This document shows positions 5,122 to 17,015 of a DNA stretch of 38,260 nucleotides, piece by piece. Origin of the DNA: Chryseobacterium gleum (lineage in GTDB: Bacteria > Bacteroidota > Bacteroidia > Flavobacteriales_F > PHOS-HE28); assembly GCA_945872795.1 (NCBI GenBank), contig CAMCAZ010000035.1:1-38260 (forward strand), read 5' to 3'. The position numbers and the translations under genes are program-made. The notes under the pieces are model-generated. The model saw nothing but the letters and a program-made list of their open reading frames with translations. It searched no databases and had not been told where the DNA came from. The stretch's first letter is position 1, and every line of letters starts with the position of its first letter.

Positions 5122-6459
5122 TCATTCCACTTCCTCCTCGGCGAACACCACCCCGTGTTTCTCCAGTTCGTTCAGGATGGGATCGTAGATGGAGGGCACG
5201 AGCGGCAGCAGCACGCCCCGGTCCTCCACCTTGCCGTTGAGGACCAGCTTGCAGGCCATCGCGATCGGCAGGCCTACTGTGCGGGCCATGGCCGTGTGCG
5301 TTTGGTCATGCCCGATCACGCCCAACGAGGCATGGATCTCCTGATGCTGGCCTTCCACGCTGTACCGGAACCGGTGCCACATCACCACCAGGTCCTTGTC
5401 GTCGGGTCCCAGCTTCCACTTGCGCTCCAGCAGGCTCTGCAGGGTGGCGGCCGGTGAAAGGCGGGCCACGCCGATCCGCTCCTGACCGAACAGGCCCAAC
5501 CAGTCGAGCTTCTGCATCACCTCACCAGCAGGGTCGAGGCCGAGGTAGTTCGCCAAGTTCGCGCGGGTATCCAGGGAGGAGTGGTGGGGAAGGAAGGCGT
5601 CCAGATAGTCGTTCCACGTGGCGTCAGCGGTCAGTTCCATGGCGAACCCGTCGTCCGTGCAACCCAGTTGTACGAAGGTGTCCCAGGCTGCGCAATAGCC
5701 CGCTTTTCGCAGGGTTCCGCGCACCAGCGTGGGGATCTCTTCGATGCCATAGGCCTTACGGTACTTGAGCGAGTCGCGGTTGGCATAGCCGTCGAAGCTC
5801 CCGAGCCCCGGCACCGCGATGCGCACGGTCTGTTGGAAGAGCTTGTGGTAGGGGATGTACTTGGTGACGCCATCACGGATGTACTTGGCCGAACCGCCCT
5901 GCCCGGCGAGGATCACGTTGCGCGGGTTCCAGCTGAACTTGTAGCCCCACGGGTTGTCGTCGCTCTCGGGGGCCACCAGTCCGCCACAATAGCTTTCGAA
6001 GGCCTCCATCCGTCCACCCTCCCGGCGGATGCGGTCCAGGATGCGCATGGCGCTCATATGGTCGATACCGGGATCGAGGCCCATCTCGTTCAATACGATC
6101 AGCCCGGCGGCCTTCAATTCGGCATCCATCGCCCACAGGGCATCGGGCACATAGCTCGGTGTGATCACGTGTTTCTTCAGCCGCATGCAGTCCTTGAGCA
6201 CGTCCATGTGCATGAACGCGGGAAGCATGCTGATCACCAGGTCGTGCCGGGCGATGGCGGCCGAGCGGGCCTCCCCGTCAGTGGCATCCAGCGCGATCCC
6301 GGTGGCCACGGTGGGGCCTTCGTGCACCAGGCGGGCTGCACTTGCGGCATCCTTGTCGGCCACGGTGATCCGCCATTCCTGCTGGTCGGCATGCGTGATG
6401 AGGTAGTGGATCAGGGAGGAGGCCGAACGCCCGGCGCCGAGGATGAGGATGGTGCGCAT
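5122..6459 (-). CDS. Saccharopine dehydrogenase-family oxidoreductase
   Basis: This 445-residue protein begins with a Rossmann fold (ILILGAGRSASSLIHYL, residues 4-20), followed by VADKD at the cofactor ribose-binding strand, and has a saccharopine dehydrogenase C-terminal domain with NEMGLDPGIDHMSAMRI and SYCGGLVAPESDDNPWGYKF. The family (LYS9-like) oxidises saccharopine to glutamate and 2-aminoadipate semialdehyde using NAD(P), in lysine metabolism; Bacteroidota usually have such a protein. No lysine-pathway partner (for example LKR or an aminoadipate semialdehyde dehydrogenase) is beside it, so the exact reaction is inferred from the family. It is cytosolic, with no signal peptide. It is divergent from the DUF4476 gene across a 184-bp promoter region. 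Confidence 0.88.
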   Translation of the reverse strand: MRTILILGAGRSASSLIHYLITHADQQEWRITVADKDAASAARLVHEGPTVATGIALDATDGEARSAAIARHDLVISMLPAFMHMDVLKDCMRLKKHVITPSYVPDALWAMDAELKAAGLIVLNEMGLDPGIDHMSAMRILDRIRREGGRMEAFESYCGGLVAPESDDNPWGYKFSWNPRNVILAGQGGSAKYIRDGVTKYIPYHKLFQQTVRIAVPGLGSFDGYANRDSLKYRKAYGIEEIPTLVRGTLRKAGYCAAWDTFVQLGCTDDGFAMELTADATWNDYLDAFLPHHSSLDTRANLANYLGLDPAGEVMQKLDWLGLFGQERIGVARLSPAATLQSLLERKWKLGPDDKDLVVMWHRFRYSVEGQHQEIHASLGVIGHDQTHTAMARTVGLPIAMACKLVLNGKVEDRGVLLPLVPSIYDPILNELEKHGVVFAEEEVE

Positions 6460-6643
6460 GGTGGATGCCGTTGCTCCGGCGAAGTAGGGATGGAGGCGCG
6501 AAGATGCGAAAGCCCGGTGGGGGGGCGGTCACCTCATGGACCGAAATCCATCATTCAGGCCCGATGAACGCGACTTTCAACGCTTTGGCACAGGGCTTGC
6601 CTGCCACGACGCAACATCTAACTTCGCGACCCATCCCACGACC
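6460..6643. promoter_or_regulatory. Divergent intergenic region between saccharopine dehydrogenase-family and DUF4476 genes
   Basis: This 184-bp gap separates two divergent genes. On the plus strand, TTG at 6597-6599 and TAACTTCGC at 6619-6627 with a 19-bp spacer form a good Bacteroidota-type promoter 17 bp before the DUF4476 ATG. On the minus strand, TACTTCGCC at 6478-6486 is a weaker match for the other gene. No further structure was identified. Confidence 0.5.
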
Positions 6644-7720
6644 ATGACGCGACATCTTACCCTTGCCTTCCTGTTCCTGGTGACCCTGTTCACCGCACAG
6701 GCACAGATTTCCGACCTCGTATTCTTCACCGACGACGGAGCCAAGTTCACCCTGATCATCGATGGCGACATCAAGAACGCCCAGCCAGCCTCACGTGTGT
6801 TGGCCACCGGGATCCGCACGGAGTCGCCCATGGTCATAGTGAAGTTCGAGGACGCTGCGATCCCGCAAATGCGGAAACCCGGCTATTTCGAGCTGGGGAA
6901 GGAGTACACCGTTATGATCACCACGAACAAGAAGGGCGAGCGGGTGCTGCGGCCGACGGGTGAAGCTGAACTGGGTACAGCCGCCCAGGCCGAACCCGCA
7001 AAGCCGAGACCTGAGACCTTCGTGGAGGATGAGCCCGCAACGCCCGTTTCAACCACTACCATCTCCACCACCACCAATACCCAGGGTGTGGATCAGACCA
7101 TCGATATCGGTGGTGTGGAACAGGTGACCTCCGTGACCGTGGTGGAAGAGGTGGAGGAAGGTGATGAGATGGGCACCGGGGAGAACGTGAACATCAACAT
7201 GGGGGTGAACGGCGTGGGCTTCAACATGTCCGTGAAAGTGGATGAAGGTGGATTGAACACCGGCTTGGGCACCACCAATACCACGAACACCACCGTACGC
7301 ACCACCACCACAACGACCACCACCAGTGGTACCGTGAAGCCTGTGGCTCCGGCAGTGGTGGAGGTCCCTGCGCCCGTAAAGGAGCCCGAGGTGTACCGCA
7401 TGCCCGGTTACTCTGGCCCCATCGGCTGCAGCTGGCCCATGAGCAGTACGGAGTTCACCGAGGCCAAGGCGAGCATCGAGAGCAAGGGCTTTGAGGAGAC
7501 CAAGATGACCATGGCCAAACAGATCGGTCGTGACCGCTGCTTCACCGTGGAGCAGGTGAAAGGCATCATGGGCGTATTCGGCTTCGAGGACACCAAGCTC
7601 GATTTCGCCAAGTATGCCTACGAGCGCACCTATGACATCGGTAACTATTACAAGGTGAACGATGCGTTCAGCTTTGAGACTTCCGTGGAGGAACTGAACG
7701 AGTACATCCAAGCCCGCTGA
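6644..7720 (+). CDS. Secreted DUF4476 domain protein with Thr-rich linkers
   Basis: This 358-residue protein has a signal peptide (residues 1-20, cut after AQA). An N-terminal beta-rich domain (about 21-110) opens ISDLVFFTDDGAKFTLIIDG, a start often seen in Bacteroidota DUF4476 proteins. Two Thr-rich stretches (about 135-155 and 210-230) flank a segment of repeated Val, Gly and Asn. The C-terminal DUF4476 domain (about 267-358) has the pattern FTVEQVKGIMGVFGFED and LDFAKYAYERTYDIGNYYKV. The function of the domain is unknown. It is the first gene of an apparent operon: the CsgG-like lipoprotein follows after 32 bp. The start at 6644 gives the signal peptide and lies just downstream of a promoter-like site; the frame is open 108 bp further upstream, with no support. 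Confidence 0.85.
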   Translation: MTRHLTLAFLFLVTLFTAQAQISDLVFFTDDGAKFTLIIDGDIKNAQPASRVLATGIRTESPMVIVKFEDAAIPQMRKPGYFELGKEYTVMITTNKKGERVLRPTGEAELGTAAQAEPAKPRPETFVEDEPATPVSTTTISTTTNTQGVDQTIDIGGVEQVTSVTVVEEVEEGDEMGTGENVNINMGVNGVGFNMSVKVDEGGLNTGLGTTNTTNTTVRTTTTTTTTSGTVKPVAPAVVEVPAPVKEPEVYRMPGYSGPIGCSWPMSSTEFTEAKASIESKGFEETKMTMAKQIGRDRCFTVEQVKGIMGVFGFEDTKLDFAKYAYERTYDIGNYYKVNDAFSFETSVEELNEYIQAR

Positions 7721-7752
7721 TCGGAGATCACCCGGCAACGAACACGTGGACC

Positions 7753-9132
7753 ATGCGCAGCACAACATGCATAGCACCTTTCCTGGCACTGGCCCTTCTG
7801 GTCGTTTCCTGCAGTGGATCCAAGTCCTTTTCCAAGAAAGCCGAGAAGCTCGATGAGGCAGGCTTGTACGCCGAAGCGGCGGACATGTACCTGCAGTCGG
7901 CACAGCGCAACATCAAGAATATCGACGCCAAGATCGGCCTGAAGAAGACCGGCCAACAGGTGCTGAACGACAAGCTCAGTGTGTTCTTCAAGAACATGGC
8001 CATGGGCGATAGCAAGGGCGAGGCCGTGTCCGCCTATCTGGAGGCCAAGCGCTACCAGGAACAGGTGCAACGGCTGGGCGTGGTGCTCGAAGTGCCGGAC
8101 CATTACAAGGCTGATTTCGATCGCGTGAAGGGCGAGCATCTCGTCGACCTGTACGATCAGGGTCAGGCGCTCTTGGCCAAGCAGGATTTCCGCGGGGCCG
8201 AGCAGGTGTTCTCCCAGATCGCCAAGCTCGAACCCAATTACAAGGATGCCAGCAGCCTGCAGGCTGTAGCCTACCTGGAGCCACTGTACCGTGCCGGCAT
8301 GTCTGATCTGGAAGGAGGGCGCTACCGCAAGGCCTACGATGAACTGAGCAGGGTGGTGGAGAAGGATGCGTCCTACAAGGATGCCGCGTCCCTGCGTCAA
8401 CAGGCGCTTACCAAGGGCCAGTACACCATCGCCGTGCTGCCCTTCACCTCGGATGTCAAGCGCGCTGAGATCACCTCGCGCGTGCAGGCCCATGCCATGA
8501 CCTCGCTGGTGGAGACCAAGGACCCCTTCCTGAAAGTGGTTGACCGGGAGAACATCGATCGCATCCTGGAGGAACAGCGACTGGGGCTCAGCGGCATCGT
8601 GGACGAACAGACCGCCGTGCGGGTGGGTAATCTCATCGGAGCACAGGCCGTGCTCATGGGCTCCGTCATCGACTACCGCGAGGAACCCGGCACCCTGCGT
8701 CGCAGCACCAAGGATGGCTTCGAGAGTTACCGCGTGCAGCAGGTGAACAAGGAGACCGGTGAGAAGTACTTCATCACTAAGTACAAGCCTGTTCGTTACA
8801 GCGAATTTTACCAGGAGAACAAGGTGGTCATGTCCTTCTCCTTCCGGTTGGTCTCCTTGGAGACCGGGGAAGTGCTGGCCAGCAAGGTGATGGACCGACA
8901 GGCCGAGGATCACATCTACTACGCCACTTACGACGGCAATGCCGATGCCCTGTTCCCTGCCAAGAACGGCTTGGTGGATGCCGCCGACCGCACGCGAAGT
9001 GACCTGCGCGGATTGCTCTCCGCACCGCGCGAGATGAAGAGCATCGCTACCCTGGGGTCGGAACTGGTGCGTACCGCATGCTCCACCATGGCATCCGATA
9101 TCCAACAGGACATCAGCAGCCGATTGCCGTGA
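7753..9132 (+). CDS. CsgG-like outer-membrane lipoprotein with TPR-like repeats
   Basis: The 459-residue product has a lipoprotein signal peptide with the lipobox VVSC at 17-20. Residues 25-215 are helical, with TPR-like units (AGLYAEAADMYLQSAQR, LAKQDFRGAEQVFSQIAKLEP and GGRYRKAYDELSRVVEKD). From residue 224 a CsgG-type domain starts YTIAVLPFTSD and includes DRENIDRILEEQRLGLSGI and RVGNLIGAQAVLMGSV. CsgG forms the curli secretion pore in E. coli, but CsgG-like domains also occur in LpoB- and FlgO-like proteins, and no curli subunit genes are nearby, so secretion is not implied. The stop overlaps the GTG start of the next gene (GTGA), indicating translational coupling to an LPP20-like partner. 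Confidence 0.88.
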   Translation: MRSTTCIAPFLALALLVVSCSGSKSFSKKAEKLDEAGLYAEAADMYLQSAQRNIKNIDAKIGLKKTGQQVLNDKLSVFFKNMAMGDSKGEAVSAYLEAKRYQEQVQRLGVVLEVPDHYKADFDRVKGEHLVDLYDQGQALLAKQDFRGAEQVFSQIAKLEPNYKDASSLQAVAYLEPLYRAGMSDLEGGRYRKAYDELSRVVEKDASYKDAASLRQQALTKGQYTIAVLPFTSDVKRAEITSRVQAHAMTSLVETKDPFLKVVDRENIDRILEEQRLGLSGIVDEQTAVRVGNLIGAQAVLMGSVIDYREEPGTLRRSTKDGFESYRVQQVNKETGEKYFITKYKPVRYSEFYQENKVVMSFSFRLVSLETGEVLASKVMDRQAEDHIYYATYDGNADALFPAKNGLVDAADRTRSDLRGLLSAPREMKSIATLGSELVRTACSTMASDIQQDISSRLP

Positions 9133-10511
9133 GAACGCTCATCCATATTTCCATCTTCGCTGCCGTATTGGGCTGTAAGGGCCGTCAGGAGACCCTGGTG
9201 ACACCGATGCCCGATGCTTCCCAGCGCCCGGCGTGGGTCTCCTCCCGGCCGGTGTCGTCGGCCTACTATGTCGGTGTTGGCATGGCCCCCCGCAGCCGAC
9301 CCGACCATCAGGAGACCGCCAAGATGAACGCGCTGAACGACCTGGCCAGCGAGATCAGCGTCAACGTGGAAGGGAACAGCCTGCTCTACACCCTGGACCG
9401 CAGGACCCAGTTCGACGAGACCTTCACCAACACCGTGCGCACCACCACCAGCGAGCAGATCGAAGGTTTCGAACTGGTGGACAGTTGGGAGAACGCCAAC
9501 GAGACCTGGACCTACTATCGCCTGTCCAAGGCGGAACATGCCCGCATCAAGGCCGAGCGCAAGGCACAGGCCATCGGAACGGCCACCGACCTGTACGCCA
9601 GGTCGCGCACCAGCCTCAGTTCCGGCGACCTGCGCGGGGCGGTGGACCAGGACCTGCGGGCCCTCATCGCCATGAAAGCCTACTGGGGTGAGAACGACCT
9701 GGTGGATATCGATGGCAAGCAGGTGCCCCTGGTCAATGAACTGTATGCCGACCTGCAGCGCCACACCAGCAGCGTGCACTTCTCCATCCTGCCCGAGCGC
9801 TGTGTCCTGGATCATGGCAACCGTTTTAAGCGTGAGCTGATGGTGAGCGCCACCTACGGCAATGGCGGCACCTCCCAGGACCTCATCCAACTACCGGTAT
9901 CGATCTCCTACTCCGGCATCAGCGGTCCGGTGGTGGAACTGAAGAGCACGGATGCAGAGGGACGTTTGCGCACCACCATTCAACGTGTGGACGTGTCGGC
10001 ATCCGTCAAGGAGGTGCTCGTTAAACTGGACATCGATCGCTTGGTGAGCCCTGAACTGGAACCGCCGCTGGTCAAGGCCTTGTTGGCAAGTCTCACCGTT
10101 CCGGAAAAACGCGCCATCATCGAACTGGCCATGCCCAAGGTCTTTATGCGGGCCAGTGAGACCAACCTGGGTGTGCCCGTGGGCGATGCCGGGGTGGCAA
10201 TGCCGGTGCGCGAGGAGATGACCAAACGCGGCTTCCGCTTCGTGGACCGCGAATCCGATGCCGACCTGCTGATGAACCTCAATGCCACCACCCGGCAGGG
10301 TGGTGAATCCTCCGGTTTCTTCACCACCTTCCTGGATGTGACCTACACCGTGCGTGATCGGCGCAGCCAGGATGTGGTGCATGAGGGCGGCAAACAGGCG
10401 GTCAAGGGTGTGCAACTGGCTTATGACAAGGCCGGTCTGGATGCTTACAAAAAGGCTGCAGCCGATGTCCGCAAGGAGCTCATCCCCGCCATGATGAGCG
10501 CTCTTTTTTAA
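9129..10511 (+). CDS. LPP20-like lipoprotein
   Basis: The start is a GTG at 9129 overlapping the stop of the preceding gene by 4 bp. It gives a 460-residue protein with a short lipoprotein signal whose lipobox VLGC ends at Cys16; an in-frame ATG 51 bp upstream would bury that signal. After the lipid anchor, RPAWVSSRPVSSAYYVGVGMA and the following helix KMNALNDLASEISVNVEG are typical of the LPP20/FlgP lipoprotein family, whose members often accompany CsgG-, FlgO- or LpoB-like proteins. Residues 230-460 form a second part with beta-rich repeats, not recognised with confidence. Its probable role is in the periplasm or at the outer membrane together with the CsgG-like partner; the precise function is unknown. 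Confidence 0.82.
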   Translation: MRTLIHISIFAAVLGCKGRQETLVTPMPDASQRPAWVSSRPVSSAYYVGVGMAPRSRPDHQETAKMNALNDLASEISVNVEGNSLLYTLDRRTQFDETFTNTVRTTTSEQIEGFELVDSWENANETWTYYRLSKAEHARIKAERKAQAIGTATDLYARSRTSLSSGDLRGAVDQDLRALIAMKAYWGENDLVDIDGKQVPLVNELYADLQRHTSSVHFSILPERCVLDHGNRFKRELMVSATYGNGGTSQDLIQLPVSISYSGISGPVVELKSTDAEGRLRTTIQRVDVSASVKEVLVKLDIDRLVSPELEPPLVKALLASLTVPEKRAIIELAMPKVFMRASETNLGVPVGDAGVAMPVREEMTKRGFRFVDRESDADLLMNLNATTRQGGESSGFFTTFLDVTYTVRDRRSQDVVHEGGKQAVKGVQLAYDKAGLDAYKKAAADVRKELIPAMMSALF

Positions 10512-10588
10512 GTTTGACGGGCATTGCCGAAGTTTGGCACGCATTTGGGATTAGCACCAACAACAGACACCATCAACGTCCTACAACC

Positions 10589-11182
10589 ATGAATATCCTG
10601 AACACCAACCGCCCATTGACGGTCCTGATGACGGCGCTGATGCTGTCCGGAGCCTTGACCGCCTGCAAAAAGAAGAAAGAGCTCGTAACCGACACCATGC
10701 CCACCGGTGAGACCGAGATCAAGGTGATGTGCTCGGGCCCCGAGTTCTTCACCAACGACAAGGTCTTCCGCCAGAACGCCGTGGGGGAGAGCCTCGACCA
10801 GATGACCTCCAAGAACAAGGCCCTCAGTGCTGCCCGTGGTCTGCTGGCCGCCGACATCAACACCCAGATCAAACGGGTGATCGACAGCTACGTCAACAGC
10901 CGCGAGATGAACAACCGCGAGGAAGTGGCCGAGCGCTACGAAGGCCTCACTCGCGAAGTGGTGGACCAAAAGCTCACCGGCACGAAGACCATCTGCGAGA
11001 AGCAGGTGACGGTGAACGGAACCGGCAACTACAAGACCTACATCGCCATCGAACTCAGCGCCCAGGACCTGCTCTCCGCTTACAACGAGCGTCTGAGCAG
11101 CGACGAGCGCCTCCGCGTGGACTACGACTACGAGAAGTTCAAAGAGACCTTCGAGGCCGAGATGAACAAGATGGGCAAGTAA
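10589..11182 (+). CDS. Small lipoprotein of the CsgG/LPP20 cluster
   Basis: The 197-residue product has a lipoprotein signal ending in the lipobox LTAC (Cys26), followed by a Lys-rich patch KKKKE. The rest is a mostly helical domain with KNKALSAARGLLAADINTQI and ERYEGLTREVVDQKL. This resembles the helix-plus-strand layout of LPP20-type proteins (a conserved residue-rich start followed by a helix with AARxxLA), so it may be a short paralogue of the preceding gene; this is inference. The start at 10589 was chosen for the signal peptide. It lies 77 bp after the LPP20-like gene and is followed at once by a strong terminator, which makes it the last gene of the cluster. Confidence 0.8.
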   Translation: MNILNTNRPLTVLMTALMLSGALTACKKKKELVTDTMPTGETEIKVMCSGPEFFTNDKVFRQNAVGESLDQMTSKNKALSAARGLLAADINTQIKRVIDSYVNSREMNNREEVAERYEGLTREVVDQKLTGTKTICEKQVTVNGTGNYKTYIAIELSAQDLLSAYNERLSSDERLRVDYDYEKFKETFEAEMNKMGK

Positions 11183-11202
11183 GCCCTCCTCCACCATCTG
11201 AT

Positions 11203-11236
11203 GGAAAGCCTCCGGTGACGGGGGCTTTCCCGTTTT
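11203..11236 (+). terminator. Intrinsic terminator of the envelope lipoprotein cluster
   Basis: A 12-bp stem (GGAAAGCCTCCG / CGGGGGCTTTCC, one G-T pair) with a GTGA loop at 11215-11218 is followed by CGTTTTCTG. It begins 21 bp after the stop codon. Confidence 0.85.
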
Positions 11237-11242
11237 CTGTCA

Positions 11243-11250
11243 GACCTTTG
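11243..11250 (+). promoter_or_regulatory. Possible -7 element for the DUF423 gene
   Basis: GACCTTTG differs by one base from TAnnTTTG and lies 32 bp before the DUF423 ATG, just after the terminator. No convincing -33 element is present. Confidence 0.3.
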
Positions 11251-11282
11251 TCCCCTTCATCTTCACCACCCAGCACCTGTTC

Positions 11283-11684
11283 ATGAAGGATCAACGCATC
11301 GCCGTCGGCGCTTTGCTCTTGCTTATCGCCGTGGCAGCCGGCGCTTTCGGCGCCCATGGCCTGCGTGCACGGCTCTCACCGCAGGCCCTGGCCCAATGGC
11401 ACACCGCTGTGGAGTACCAGTTCTACCATGGCCTTGGGATCCTGTTGGTGGTCGCATTGTCAGAGCGCCTCGGTACGGGCTCCGTGCGCTGGGCATGCCG
11501 TCTGTTCCTGGGTGGTACCCTGCTCTTCAGTGGCTCCATCTACCTGCTGAGCACCAGGGAGTTGACCGGCTTTCACGGTATCGGGTCCATGCTCGGGCCG
11601 ATCACCCCGCTCGGCGGCCTGCTGCTGATGGCGGGCTGGGCGACCCTGTTGATATCCGCTGTACGACGATCTGACGTCGGTTAG
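11283..11684 (+). CDS. DUF423 (YgdD-type) membrane protein
   Basis: This 133-residue integral membrane protein has four predicted transmembrane segments, the first spanning residues 7-24. It carries the family hallmark AAGAFGAHGLRARLSPQAL (19-37) and VEYQFYHGLGILLV, followed by FLGGTLLFSGSIYLL and IGSMLGPITPLGGLLLMAGW. Members are inner-membrane proteins of unknown function. The length is normal. It stands between the terminator of the lipoprotein cluster and the promoter of pckA, so it may be its own transcription unit. Confidence 0.9.
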   Translation: MKDQRIAVGALLLLIAVAAGAFGAHGLRARLSPQALAQWHTAVEYQFYHGLGILLVVALSERLGTGSVRWACRLFLGGTLLFSGSIYLLSTRELTGFHGIGSMLGPITPLGGLLLMAGWATLLISAVRRSDVG

Positions 11685-11705
11685 GTCCACGATCACGGAA
11701 GGACC

Positions 11706-11714
11706 TACTTTTGC
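11706..11714 (+). promoter_or_regulatory. -7 element of the pckA promoter
   Basis: TACTTTTGC matches the Bacteroidota -7 consensus TAnnTTTGC exactly and lies 26 bp before the pckA ATG. A TTAGG about 20 bp upstream is only a weak -33 candidate. Confidence 0.6.
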
Positions 11715-11740
11715 GCTCCCATTACTCAACCTTTAGGAAC

Positions 11741-13354
<1,614 letters not shown>

Positions 13355-13374
13355 GCGCACCATCGTTCCTCTTG

Positions 13375-13409
13375 GAGGCCCTTCCGGGAACGGAGGGGCC
13401 TCTTTGTTC
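13375..13409 (+). terminator. Intrinsic terminator of pckA
   Basis: A 12-bp stem (GAGGCCCTTCCG / CGGAGGGGCCTC, one G-T pair) with a GGAA loop at 13387-13390 is followed by TTTGTT. It starts 20 bp after the pckA stop. Confidence 0.85.
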
Positions 13410-13461
13410 GGGAACGGTCCGGATCTTGCACAGCGGCAGAGAGCTGCGACACCGATCCGGC

Positions 13462-13470
13462 TACCTTTGC
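13462..13470 (+). promoter_or_regulatory. -7 element upstream of the S41-like gene
   Basis: TACCTTTGC matches TAnnTTTGC exactly and lies 16 bp before the ATG at 13487. No -33 element is found at the usual spacing. Confidence 0.5.
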
Positions 13471-13486
13471 CGCCCTTTCCGAGGTC

Positions 13487-14941
13487 ATGAGGAGGATGAG
13501 AACGTGTTCATTGCTGGTCGCTGCTGTACTGGCGGTCTCCGCGCTTGCACAGGGATCCAACACGGGCGGACCTTTCTACCCTGAAAAGCTGCATTCCGAT
13601 CTGGAGGTGCTGCGGGATGTCCTTCACCGTGCCCATCCCGATCCCTATCGCTACGCCACGCAGGCCGGCCTGGACCGTGCCTTCGACGCGGTGCTGGACA
13701 GCATAACCGTCCCACTGGACAGGCAGGCCTTCCTCAACGCCCTGATGCCGGTCTTCCACCTGGTGGGCGACGCGCATTGCTACCCCGATCTGCCTGCCAC
13801 ACAGCGGGGACGGATCGAACAGGAACTGCCCGTGATCCCCATCAAGGTGAGCATCCTCAACGAAGGGCTCTACGTGGAGGAGGAGCTGAAAGGGTTTCGG
13901 AGCCTGCCCCTCGGCGTTCGGATCCTGTCGATCAATGGACACAGCGCCGAGCATATCCTGCAACGCCTGGGGCGCATGATCACCGTGGACGGCGCGAACA
14001 CCACCCTGCGCGTCAGAAGGTTGGAGAAGGAGTTCCCCTGGCTGTACCGGCGGTACATTGATGCCTCCAGCTCTTTCACGGTGCGCTATCAGATGACCGA
14101 TGGCAGCGAGGCGGAACAGAAGGTCTTTGCCATGACCGGTGAAGAGATGGCCAGGACACGTAAACCCGATGGGGCCGGGTTGAACTCTTGGCGCGTGTTC
14201 TGGGACCAGGACAGCGAGGCCCTGTGGGTCACGCTCCGCACTCTGGACCTGGATACGCTGGCAGCAGCGGGCATCCGTCCGGATAGATTCCTGGCCGCCA
14301 TGCTGAAGGACGCCCGGCGGAACAAGGCCCGTTCGGTGGTCTTTGACCTGCGCGGTGCGGGTGGCCGCGACCTGGCTGCTGCCGAACTGGTCTTTGCCAG
14401 CGTCGCCAAAGCCCCTTTCCGGGTGGTGCAGAGCATGACCGTACGGAGCATCGATCCAGCCCTTGGACCCCTCGCGGGCCTTCCCGCCGATCACCTCAGC
14501 ATGGTGCTGGACCAGTTCGTGCCCGGACCCAACGGAGTGTCCCACCTGCGGCCGGACGACACGCGCCTGGTACCTCTGCAGCCCATGGCCAAGGCCTTTC
14601 AAGGCAAGGTTTATGTGGTCTGCGATGGAATGACCCGCGATGCCGGTGCCGCCTTGGTGATGTTGGCCAAACGAACGGGCAGGGCCCGTGTGGTGGGCGA
14701 GGAGGTGGGCTCCAACGCGCTGAGCTTCACGGGTGGTCGGGCCTTGACCACCGTGCTGCCGCATTCCGGCATTGAGCTGCATGTGCCGCTGATGCGCTAC
14801 GTCCCCGATGGCATGCCTTCGGGTCCGATGGACCATGGTGAACGGCCCCACCACGAGGTGGAGCAACAGCCCTGGGGGATCGCCAAAGGACGCGACACCA
14901 TCCGTGAGGCCTTGTTGGAGATGATCCGCGAGCTGCGATGA
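13487..14941 (+). CDS. S41 peptidase-like secreted protein, probably inactive
   Basis: The 484-residue product has a signal peptide (about 1-22, ending SALAQ). A helical N-terminal S41 domain includes LRDVLHRAHPDPYRY and FHLVGDAHCYPDLP; a PDZ-like region contains LPLGVRILSINGHSAEHIL; the C-terminal peptidase fold includes ARSVVFDLRGAGGRDLAAAE and RARVVGEEVGSNALSFTGGR. In active S41 enzymes the serine sits in a T-x-S-A-[AG] motif; here the aligned stretch reads GMTRDAGAALV with Asp385 in its place. The protein may be a binding or scaffold pseudo-enzyme. A second in-frame ATG at 13496 is a possible alternative start. The stop overlaps the start of the substrate-binding lipoprotein gene (ATGA), so the two are probably made together. 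Confidence 0.82.
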   Translation: MRRMRTCSLLVAAVLAVSALAQGSNTGGPFYPEKLHSDLEVLRDVLHRAHPDPYRYATQAGLDRAFDAVLDSITVPLDRQAFLNALMPVFHLVGDAHCYPDLPATQRGRIEQELPVIPIKVSILNEGLYVEEELKGFRSLPLGVRILSINGHSAEHILQRLGRMITVDGANTTLRVRRLEKEFPWLYRRYIDASSSFTVRYQMTDGSEAEQKVFAMTGEEMARTRKPDGAGLNSWRVFWDQDSEALWVTLRTLDLDTLAAAGIRPDRFLAAMLKDARRNKARSVVFDLRGAGGRDLAAAELVFASVAKAPFRVVQSMTVRSIDPALGPLAGLPADHLSMVLDQFVPGPNGVSHLRPDDTRLVPLQPMAKAFQGKVYVVCDGMTRDAGAALVMLAKRTGRARVVGEEVGSNALSFTGGRALTTVLPHSGIELHVPLMRYVPDGMPSGPMDHGERPHHEVEQQPWGIAKGRDTIREALLEMIRELR

Positions 14942-15999
14942 AGTGGTCGGTACTGGCCACAGCTGTCATCCTGACCGCGTGCGGTCCTCGTTCGCAGCCT
15001 CCCACGGACAACGCCTGGACGGATGAGGCGAACGCGCACGCCCGTTTTTTCCGCCTTCAGACCAGGGGGGGGCAACACCGCGCACTGGTCTTCGGACCCG
15101 GTGGGACGGACGATACACTGGCCGTGATCGACCTTTCCGCGACGCCCTGGCAGCGCGTGGCCGTGATGAGCACCACCCATGTACCCTACATCAGTGCCTT
15201 GGGCCTGACGGACCATATCGTTGCTGCGGCCTACCTGGATGCGGTGAGGGACGCTTCCCTGCGCCAACGGATCCTCAATGGACAGGTGGTGGAACTGGTG
15301 ACCGGGGAACGCCTGGACCGGGAGCAGTTGATGCTGCTGAGTCCGGACGCCTTGTTTGACCAGCCCTTCGGTCGCGCCGACCGGGCTCCTCGGGCCGAAG
15401 GTGTCCTCACGGTTCCGGTCACGGAATATCTTGAAGAGCACCCACTGGGCCGTGCGGAATGGATCCGGTTCTTCGGTGCCGTGATGGGGAGGAAGGCCCA
15501 GACCGATTCCCTGTTCGCCGCGATCGAAGCACGCTACGATGAGGCCGCCCAACGGGTGGATACCGTGACCACCCGTCCCGTGGTGTTCTTCGGCAGCACC
15601 TGGCAGGGCCGATTCCATGCTGCTGCGGGGAACAGCTATATGGTGCGCACCCTGCGTGATGCCGGCGGCACACCGTGGGCGAAGGACACCATGCTAAGGG
15701 AGAACCCTCCGGTGGATATCGAAGGCATGATGGCCCTGGCCGATGAAGTGGACCATGTGGGACTGGTGGTCGCCCTGCGCTCACCGCCTGATGCCCGTGC
15801 ATTGATGGGGGGCGATGAACGGCTGGCACATGCCCGCGGGGTGGAACAAGGCGGGTTCTACGCCAACAGCGAAGCCACCGATGTCTTCGGACAGGCCCTG
15901 CTGGAACCCGAGGTGGTGCTGCTCGACCTGATCAAGGTCCTGCATCCGGAACGTGCGCAGGACCATACCCCGCGCTATTTCCACCGCATCGTTCAATAG
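14938..15999 (+). CDS. ABC transporter substrate-binding lipoprotein (TroA/BtuF-like)
   Basis: This 353-residue protein has a lipoprotein signal with the lipobox LTAC ending at Cys15. Its body resembles class III periplasmic binding proteins for iron chelates or cobalamin: VAVMSTTHVPYISALGLTDHIVAAAYLD in the first lobe, LMLLSPDALFD, then VVFFGSTWQGRFHAAAGNSYM and VDIEGMMALADEVDHV in the second lobe. These proteins deliver a chelated metal or corrinoid to an inner-membrane ABC importer. No permease or ATPase gene is in the window, so the ligand and transporter are unknown. Its start overlaps the stop of the S41-like gene by 4 bp. At the 3' end it overlaps the convergent Mpo1-like gene by 7 bp. 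Confidence 0.82.
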   Translation: MKWSVLATAVILTACGPRSQPPTDNAWTDEANAHARFFRLQTRGGQHRALVFGPGGTDDTLAVIDLSATPWQRVAVMSTTHVPYISALGLTDHIVAAAYLDAVRDASLRQRILNGQVVELVTGERLDREQLMLLSPDALFDQPFGRADRAPRAEGVLTVPVTEYLEEHPLGRAEWIRFFGAVMGRKAQTDSLFAAIEARYDEAAQRVDTVTTRPVVFFGSTWQGRFHAAAGNSYMVRTLRDAGGTPWAKDTMLRENPPVDIEGMMALADEVDHVGLVVALRSPPDARALMGGDERLAHARGVEQGGFYANSEATDVFGQALLEPEVVLLDLIKVLHPERAQDHTPRYFHRIVQ

Positions 16000-16466
16000 C
16001 TGATGCCCAGCCGCCGGTAGATGAAGCCCATCAGCCAGGCCGGACCGATCATCAGGAACTGCAGGTCGTCCAGGAAGCTGGGTTTCTTCCCCTCCACCTT
16101 GTGGCCGTAGAACTGTCCGATCCAGGCGGCTACGAAGAGCACCAGGGCGATGGACCACAATGGCCGATCAGCGTGGGTATCCAGCCAGGCACTGAGCAGC
16201 AGGCAGAGACCGCTGAACAGCGCCATTCCGAACATGATGGGTATGGACAGGCGCACGTAGAACAAGGCAACGAGCAGCAAGGCTGACATCGCCGCCCAAC
16301 CGCTGGGCAGCCAGGGTGTGGAGGGCCATCCGGGGATACTCCAGAGCAGCGCGACCAAGCAGAAATAGATGGTGGGCACACAGATCCAGTGGATCAGTTT
16401 GTTGGTGGGGTTCCGGTGGCTTTCGCCGTAGGCGTCGAACCACTGCTGGATGCTGCGCGCGGCCAT
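15993..16466 (-). CDS. Mpo1-like (DUF962) membrane protein
   Basis: The 157-residue product has four hydrophobic segments and the conserved histidine motifs of the Mpo1/YGL010W family: YGESHRNPTNKLIHW (residues 13-27) near the N-terminus and QFYGHKVEGKKPSFLDDLQF in the second half. Yeast Mpo1 is an Fe(II)-dependent dioxygenase acting on 2-hydroxy fatty acids; the bacterial members share the histidines but are mostly uncharacterised, so this activity is an inference. It is the last gene of the four-gene minus-strand group that starts at the TPR gene, beginning 4 bp after the DinB-like stop. Its stop overlaps the end of the convergent binding-protein gene. Confidence 0.88.
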   Translation of the reverse strand: MAARSIQQWFDAYGESHRNPTNKLIHWICVPTIYFCLVALLWSIPGWPSTPWLPSGWAAMSALLLVALFYVRLSIPIMFGMALFSGLCLLLSAWLDTHADRPLWSIALVLFVAAWIGQFYGHKVEGKKPSFLDDLQFLMIGPAWLMGFIYRRLGISY

Positions 16467-16470
16467 GGCT

Positions 16471-16989
16471 TCAGAGGTATCGTTCGTTGATCACGGTGAG
16501 GTGATGGGACGTATGCCCGGCGATGATCCAGCCCAACGCACGCACCGTCACGCGCCCCCTGTTCGCCGTGCCCCACCTCACGAGCATCCCGTCCGTGAAG
16601 CTCTGGAACAGGTCCATGGTGCCGGCCCTTACGGTGCGCCACTCGGTGGTGAGCTCGGCCCAAGGGCGGCGGTCGGTATCGGCGTTCGCCACGTAGGCAT
16701 CCTCATCGAAACCCGGCAGCGAGGCCTGTTCACCCCGCGCAAAACAGAGGGCGCGGTAGGCCATGATCCGCTCGCAATCGGTTAGGTGCTGCACCACCTC
16801 GCGCAGGCTCCATTTGCCGGCAGCGTAGCGATGCAGACTTCGATCGGCCCTGACCGTGTCCAAGGTGCGCAGGGTCTGCTTGGTGTTCTGGTCCAAGGCG
16901 TCGAACAGGTCCGAGCCCTCCATGCGGGTCACGTAACCGTGGTAGAAGGGAGGCATTTCCTCCAAGGCCGGACGGCGAGCTTCGATCAT
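16471..16989 (-). CDS. DinB-like (DUF664/DinB superfamily) protein
   Basis: The 172-residue product folds as a four-helix DinB bundle by sequence pattern. The expected metal-binding histidines are in place: VVQHLTDCERIM in helix 2 and GWIIAGHTSHHLTVINERYL at the C-terminus. Relatives include bacillithiol or mycothiol transferases and many proteins of unknown activity; the substrate cannot be told from sequence. The start at 16989 gives the usual family length; the frame is open further upstream, but that part overlaps the DUF218 gene antisense-free in another frame and is less likely. It lies 26 bp after the DUF218 gene and 4 bp before the Mpo1-like gene. Confidence 0.85.
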   Translation of the reverse strand: MIEARRPALEEMPPFYHGYVTRMEGSDLFDALDQNTKQTLRTLDTVRADRSLHRYAAGKWSLREVVQHLTDCERIMAYRALCFARGEQASLPGFDEDAYVANADTDRRPWAELTTEWRTVRAGTMDLFQSFTDGMLVRWGTANRGRVTVRALGWIIAGHTSHHLTVINERYL

Positions 16990-17015
16990 GATCCCAAGAT
17001 AGGGATCCACGTCGC

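Follow-up and report, generated by a model that had tools for sequence, protein, structure and literature searches.

A conserved lipoprotein gene cluster of Bacteroidota with sigma-54-type sites, putatively encoding a ring or scaffold beneath the outer membrane

Introduction

Rings of the FlgO/FlgP/FlgT type are known as accessories of the flagellum. In Vibrio fischeri, the genes of the H-ring trio carry consecutive locus tags (VF_1883-1885) and their products form a ring around the flagellar L-ring (PMC6375700). In the FlgP family, oligomerisation into rings correlates with an insert located between the helix and the second strand of the SHS2 domain, as in FlgT (PMC12222027). Here we analyse a cluster of four envelope genes on the + strand of a 38,260-nucleotide stretch of DNA, hereafter the window (Chryseobacterium gleum, GenBank assembly GCA_945872795.1, contig CAMCAZ010000035.1, positions 1-38,260, forward strand). 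The source, described here as a sewage-type Bacteroidota bacterium, is placed by GTDB in the lineage Bacteria; Bacteroidota; Bacteroidia; Flavobacteriales_F; PHOS-HE28. In order, the genes code for a DUF4476 protein (gene 1), a CsgG-like lipoprotein (gene 2), an LPP20-like lipoprotein (gene 3) and a small lipoprotein (gene 4), and a terminator stands at the end. The cluster probably encodes an as yet undescribed ring or scaffold beneath the outer membrane. The fuller reading, in which the lipoproteins of genes 2-4 make up an outer-membrane ring or scaffold that is controlled by sigma-54 and faces the periplasm, is tentatively preferred at slightly below an even chance.

The set of parts is most like that of the Vibrio H-ring trio, with adjacent genes for FlgT-like, FlgP-like and FlgT-middle/CsgG-like lipoproteins. 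Several features are shared with the Vibrio H-ring (FlgO/FlgP/FlgT) and the FlgP basal disk of Campylobacter (PMC12222027, PMC6375700): adjacent genes, a predicted outer-membrane location, a FlgT-middle/CsgG-like domain and, as in FlgP and FlgT, an SHS2/LPP20 domain that carries a hairpin insert. Unlike the H-ring, the cluster comes without FlgH, includes a tetratricopeptide-repeat (TPR) solenoid in gene 2, an Ig-like domain in gene 3 and a DUF4476 gene, and shows low sequence identity to the flagellar proteins. A search of the whole genome gave no match to FlgH, a control giving a signal in three flagellated genomes, and no match to the curlin repeat, in line with the original prediction, made from the letters of the window, that flagellar and curli genes are missing. 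The cluster may work like an H-ring but is not classed as one, since the test for a flagellar context came out negative; and because an H-ring-like set of parts occurs in a genome devoid of FlgH and curlin, a flagellum-independent outer-membrane ring or scaffold is proposed.

The curli channel CsgG is, like gene 2, an outer-membrane lipoprotein with a Pfam CsgG match and the same fold of the periplasmic domain, but gene 2 has neither the constriction loop nor the second membrane hairpin, there is no curlin in the genome, and a TPR solenoid is added. The fold of PelC, the ring of exopolysaccharide export, recurs in gene 2 and in the C-terminal domain of gene 3; PelC itself is a lipoprotein dodecamer with a single small domain, and no PelB-like porin or polysaccharide genes were seen in the neighbourhood of the cluster. 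LpoB, the activator of a cell-wall synthase, is likewise an outer-membrane lipoprotein of this fold family; to our knowledge, LpoB systems have no LPP20 partner. In Leptospira, the lipoprotein LipL41 has a small partner lipoprotein, Lep. This pairing resembles that of the cluster, and gene 2 gives a weak and partial NCBIfam match to LipL41 (E 1.6e-4, about 50 residues, 20.7 bits against a cut-off of 400). Among open-licence papers, nothing was found that joins CsgG, LPP20 and lipoprotein in Bacteroidetes or LPP20 and CHASE2, and DUF4476 appears only in work on spiralian animals; the earlier view that the system is undescribed therefore stands within that literature.

If the proposal is true, conserved and regulated ring parts occurring without the flagellar L-ring protein would suggest that outer-membrane rings are a general-purpose toolkit and would supply an outgroup for tracing the recruitment of flagellar disks. 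It would also link the LPP20, CsgG and DUF4476 proteins found in Bacteroidota with a defined operon and a defined transcription signal, and thereby make them testable.

Organization and Conservation of the Cluster

Gene 1 (6644..7720, + strand, as are all features of the cluster) codes for a protein with a signal peptide, a conserved N-terminal domain, a Thr-rich linker and a C-terminal DUF4476 domain (Pfam E 1.2e-19; residues 266-355, bases 7439-7708), and has no lipobox. Gene 2 (7753..9132) combines a TPR-type solenoid with a CsgG/FlgT-middle/PelC-like domain. Gene 3 (9129..10511), made of an LPP20/SHS2 domain, helices, an Ig-like domain and a CsgG/PelC/FlgT-middle-like domain, starts at a GTG that overlaps the stop codon of gene 2 over 4 bp (GTGA). 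Gene 4 (10589..11182) is a small lipoprotein gene, and a terminator-like hairpin with a T-rich tail follows at 11203..11240 (hairpin 11203-11230; 12-pair stem, 4-base loop). The lipobox Cys codons of genes 2, 3 and 4 lie at 7810-7812, 9174-9176 and 10664-10666, and the Cys is invariant among the aligned sequences (38/38, 38/38 and 17/17, respectively). All four open reading frames of the original prediction are thus found where it placed them, with export signals on every product, lipoproteins in the last three positions and the 4-bp overlap. Its promoter and terminator fared differently: the terminator stands, while the promoter is of the sigma-54 type, no sigma-70 type having been found. In Bacteroidota, an acidic run after the lipobox Cys is a signal for export to the surface. 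Since no such run follows the Cys of genes 2-4 in the aligned relatives, the three lipoproteins are likelier to face the periplasm.

Each of the four proteins was searched in 58 relatives, and a scan of named genomes gave 50 loci. The order 1-2-3-4 is unbroken in 19 of the 20 longer loci of the genus, the remaining one being cut by a contig end, and in 35 of the 50 named-genome loci, six more of which end at a contig edge. Genes 2 and 3 are adjacent in all 47 named-genome loci where the contig allows it, in several orders of Bacteroidota, including Salibacter halophilus, Raineya, a Cytophagales metagenome-assembled genome (MAG), Marinilabiliaceae JC040 and a Salinivirgaceae MAG, and 32 of these 47 have an overlap of exactly 4 bp. 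Flanking genes vary between and within groups, and those of distant loci are mostly unrelated (DUF547, CoA-binding, DNA polymerase IV, carboxyl transferase, thioredoxin) and offer no common hint. Because the flanks differ in this way, the block itself is the conserved unit, and the four genes form such a unit; the order is kept within the genus wherever contigs allow, and the scattering that would have spoken against a four-gene cluster is not seen there.

Across the phylum, the distribution is patchy: genes 2, 3 and 4 were found in 6, 8 and 5 of 198 genomes (E <= 1e-15), and family f14 has genes 3 and 4 together without gene 2. Gene 1 is the loosest member, because DUF4476 relatives spread far beyond the genera that have gene 2 (15 of 24 genera, against 5 of those 24 for gene 2). 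Many genomes have such relatives without the other three genes, and gene 1 is missing at many loci that retain genes 2 and 3.

Sigma-54-Type Control

Upstream of gene 1, and overlooked by the original prediction, lies an exact -24/-12 sigma-54 site, TTGGCACAGGGCTTGC (6585..6600), 44 bases before the start codon. With at most one mismatch, the site is present in 36 of 40 relatives, which are not independent of one another, vs 0.4% of 600-bp background windows. Relatedness alone explains this conservation poorly, because the encoded proteins of the compared relatives share only about 35-70% identity and the site's flanking bases are not conserved. Together with RpoN, which is encoded in the genome, the conserved -24/-12 site points to a sigma-54-dependent operon. 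No sigma-70-type promoter was found in the upstream scan. A Bacteroidota-type -33/-7 promoter (TTG-N19-TAacTTcG), noticed by eye upstream of gene 1, was set aside in favour of the -24/-12 site, which is the better match and is conserved.

A second, weaker sigma-54-like site, TTTGGCACGCATTTGGG (10533..10549), precedes gene 4. Its TTTGGCAC part, which occurs at only two places in the window (before gene 1 and before gene 4), is present in 36 of 37 gaps between genes 3 and 4, followed by TTGGAAA or TTCGCAAA; the -12 part deviates from the consensus. Because this site lies inside the cluster, gene 4 may also be transcribed alone. Sites with one or two mismatches are found as well before gene 3 in family f14 and before the separate gene 4 of Salibacter, those with two mismatches being individually weak.

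The spread of these sites speaks for an alternative in which the cluster would be a set of co-regulated but separate lipoproteins, answering envelope or nutrient stress through a shared sigma-54 response, each with its own target and without forming a single complex. Sigma-54-like sites persist where gene 4 stands apart or gene 2 is missing, the second site permits separate expression of gene 4, and LptE and PqiC, which have the same fold, offer a comparison. Against this explanation, genes 2 and 3 remain adjacent with a coupled overlap across orders, an arrangement that usually means joint assembly, and gene 4 is homologous to the N-terminal domain of gene 3. We regard separate action of the lipoproteins as unlikely.

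The genome holds only two exact sigma-54 sites. The other (locus L136, G000:C43:14000-28000, near 9647, minus strand) is found 41 bases upstream of a BamB/PQQ-like propeller gene (7651-9621, - strand), which is followed by a gene with a TonB domain (6422-7000, - strand); from the position of the site, the BamB-like propeller and TonB genes are a candidate for a co-regulated partner operon. In genome G240 (locus L126), an rpoN-like open reading frame (11617-13071, + strand), recognized by eye from its start, is located a few genes downstream of a gene 3-gene 4 pair.

The TPR-CsgG Lipoprotein

Pfam recognizes a CsgG domain in gene 2 (3e-13, 50 bits vs a cut-off of 20.8), together with weak TPR matches at residues 130-217. 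The monomer model (pLDDT 87.6) has a helical TPR-type solenoid at residues 23-222 and an alpha/beta domain at 223-459; the predicted solenoid and the weak TPR hits agree with the original description of a CsgG domain behind TPR-like repeats. The fold of the alpha/beta domain is common to FlgT-middle, PelC, CsgG, TolB-N and LpoB. Compared with known structures, the model matches FlgT (Z 14.6, 152 aligned, 3.6 A), the LPHT ring (Z 14.2, 152 aligned, 3.0 A), PelC (Z 14.2, 124 aligned, 2.2 A), CsgG (Z 12.8, 171 aligned, 7.2 A) and LpoB (Z about 11); a match of the solenoid to 14-3-3 proteins was taken as a common arrangement. When gene 2 was searched by sequence against solved structures, whether singly or as a profile, only weak TPR matches were returned, and because comparison of its profile with one E. 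coli CsgG sequence was insignificant, kinship to CsgG rests on Pfam and fold.

Could gene 2 be a CsgG-type secretion channel, that is, a beta-barrel pore in the outer membrane for the export of the Thr-rich DUF4476 protein or some other client, the LPP20 proteins playing an accessory role? The Pfam CsgG match exceeds its cut-off in the window protein and recurs in 36 of the 38 relatives (E <= 0.001), CsgG is among the fold matches, a long hairpin is predicted at the position of the first CsgG membrane hairpin, and the first gene of the operon encodes a secreted protein. That hairpin, however, is 30-39% charged and lacks the alternation of membrane strands, although this composition test is crude, CsgG's own hairpins alternating weakly. 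The loop that bears the constriction residues (Tyr51, Asn55 and Phe56 of mature CsgG) is missing, the first strand-helix loop being about 10 residues shorter and unconserved, and a short strand and a helix replace the second membrane hairpin. Moreover, many loci with genes 2 and 3 have no gene 1, and CsgE, CsgF and curlin were not seen near the cluster. Because the constriction loop and the second membrane hairpin are missing, a curli-type channel is unlikely; gene 2 is probably not a curli-type pore, an argument that rests on the monomer model, and we consider the channel explanation quite improbable.

The similarity to LpoB could point to a role in the regulation of cell-wall synthesis, in which gene 2 would reach a synthase across the peptidoglycan and activate it, with LPP20 proteins acting as co-factors. 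Pfam LpoB similarity is present in 15 of 38 relatives (E <= 0.001), the helical solenoid could serve as a spacer, and in one genome relatives of gene 3 and LPP20-type genes lie beside an MltC-like transglycosylase gene. The window protein itself stays under the curated LpoB cut-off (21.2 vs 22.3 bits), though, and FlgT, PelC and CsgG are better fold matches. With, in addition, a cluster that is patchy in the phylum and no penicillin-binding protein in its neighbourhood, such a role appears very unlikely.

Variants of gene 2 are found at other loci. At L123 (6406-8442), a CsgG-only gene without TPR repeats lies directly upstream of a gene 3 relative; the pairing of CsgG with LPP20 thus also exists without the solenoid. 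Many members of the genus have a second TPR-CsgG lipoprotein gene (L043:7005-8165; L044:7343-9373, - strand) with about 30% identity to gene 2, without LPP20 neighbours and absent from the genome of the window. At L100 (= L045; 4999-6605), gene 2 appears as two overlapping frames, owing to a frameshift or an assembly error.

The LPP20-Type Lipoproteins

Gene 3 has a Pfam LPP20 match above the cut-off (5e-14) and no named family in NCBIfam. Its monomer model (pLDDT 85.6) begins with an SHS2/LPP20 domain (residues 34-133) and continues through helices and an Ig-like domain (214-334) to a C-terminal domain of the CsgG/PelC fold (335-460). Within the SHS2 domain, a helix (60-76) is followed by a hairpin insert (residues 80-105, bases 9366..9443; strands 80-91 and 94-105) and then by a strand at 115-121. 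The C-terminal domain has fold matches at Z about 10 (PelC 10.2, FlgT 9.4), and Campylobacter FlgP (9hmf) is among the Foldseek matches of gene 3; a match of the Ig-like domain to macroglobulins was taken as a common arrangement.

The window protein of gene 4 has no Pfam match. Its profile nevertheless aligns with the LPP20 domain of gene 3 (probability 92%, E 6e-7), the lengths of the two inserts are similar, and 13 of 17 aligned members give weak LPP20 matches (E <= 0.1, best 3.9e-4). Judged by profile comparison, gene 4 is probably a diverged, stand-alone LPP20 domain, so what was at first simply a third lipoprotein keeps that status and gains a likeness to LPP20. The original prediction noted that CsgG/LPP20 partners occur in FlgO/FlgP and LpoB-type systems. 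The folds seen here are those of proteins that form outer-membrane rings, and the best structural matches are FlgT and PelC for gene 2 and domains of the FlgP, FlgT and CsgG type for gene 3, ahead of LpoB. The same genome has a paralog of gene 4, with about 30% identity, at another place among unrelated neighbours (G000:C3:58115-58648; L042:8020-8679), and nearly every member of the genus has one.

A Proposed Ring or Scaffold Assembly

In the preferred reading, the cluster would code for an envelope assembly expressed under sigma-54 control. The lipoproteins of genes 2-4 would be anchored in the outer membrane's inner leaflet, facing the periplasm. The FlgT-like gene 3 product and the FlgP-like, stand-alone LPP20 product of gene 4 would oligomerise through the hairpin insert of the SHS2 domain into one or more rings, on which gene 2 would stack through its own CsgG/FlgT-middle/PelC-like domain, its TPR solenoid holding a periplasmic partner. 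The ring would most likely be a collar or scaffold without a pore, in which it would be closer to the H-ring or PelC than to a beta-barrel channel. The secreted DUF4476 protein of gene 1 may be a client or an extra subunit gained in one lineage, its role as a client being only a guess.

Several observations weigh against this assembly. The gene 3 hairpin sits at the position of the FlgP/FlgT insert, yet it is predicted with low confidence (pLDDT < 50). The LPP20 sequence matches are to the family at large, including members that are not known to form rings, and the CsgG/PelC fold is also that of LptE, PqiC and TolB, which do not form large rings. Some lineages have genes 3 and 4 without gene 2, and in some gene 4 lies apart from the rest.

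A more specific version would make the cluster a flagellum-independent relative of the H-ring or basal disk, namely a sigma-54-controlled, multi-ring machine at the outer membrane of Bacteroidota, built from FlgT-, FlgP- and CsgG-type lipoproteins around an export or surface structure. Such a machine appears doubtful, if conceivable.

In another Bacteroidota genome, at locus L122 (G147:C42:25000-42000; 5651-16999, - strand), a relative of gene 3 and two genes of the LPP20 type lie near the MltC-like transglycosylase gene; a BamB-like/PQQ propeller, a CHASE2-guanylate cyclase and an M48/SH3 peptidase are encoded nearby as well. This neighbourhood is a hint at what the assembly might surround or hold.

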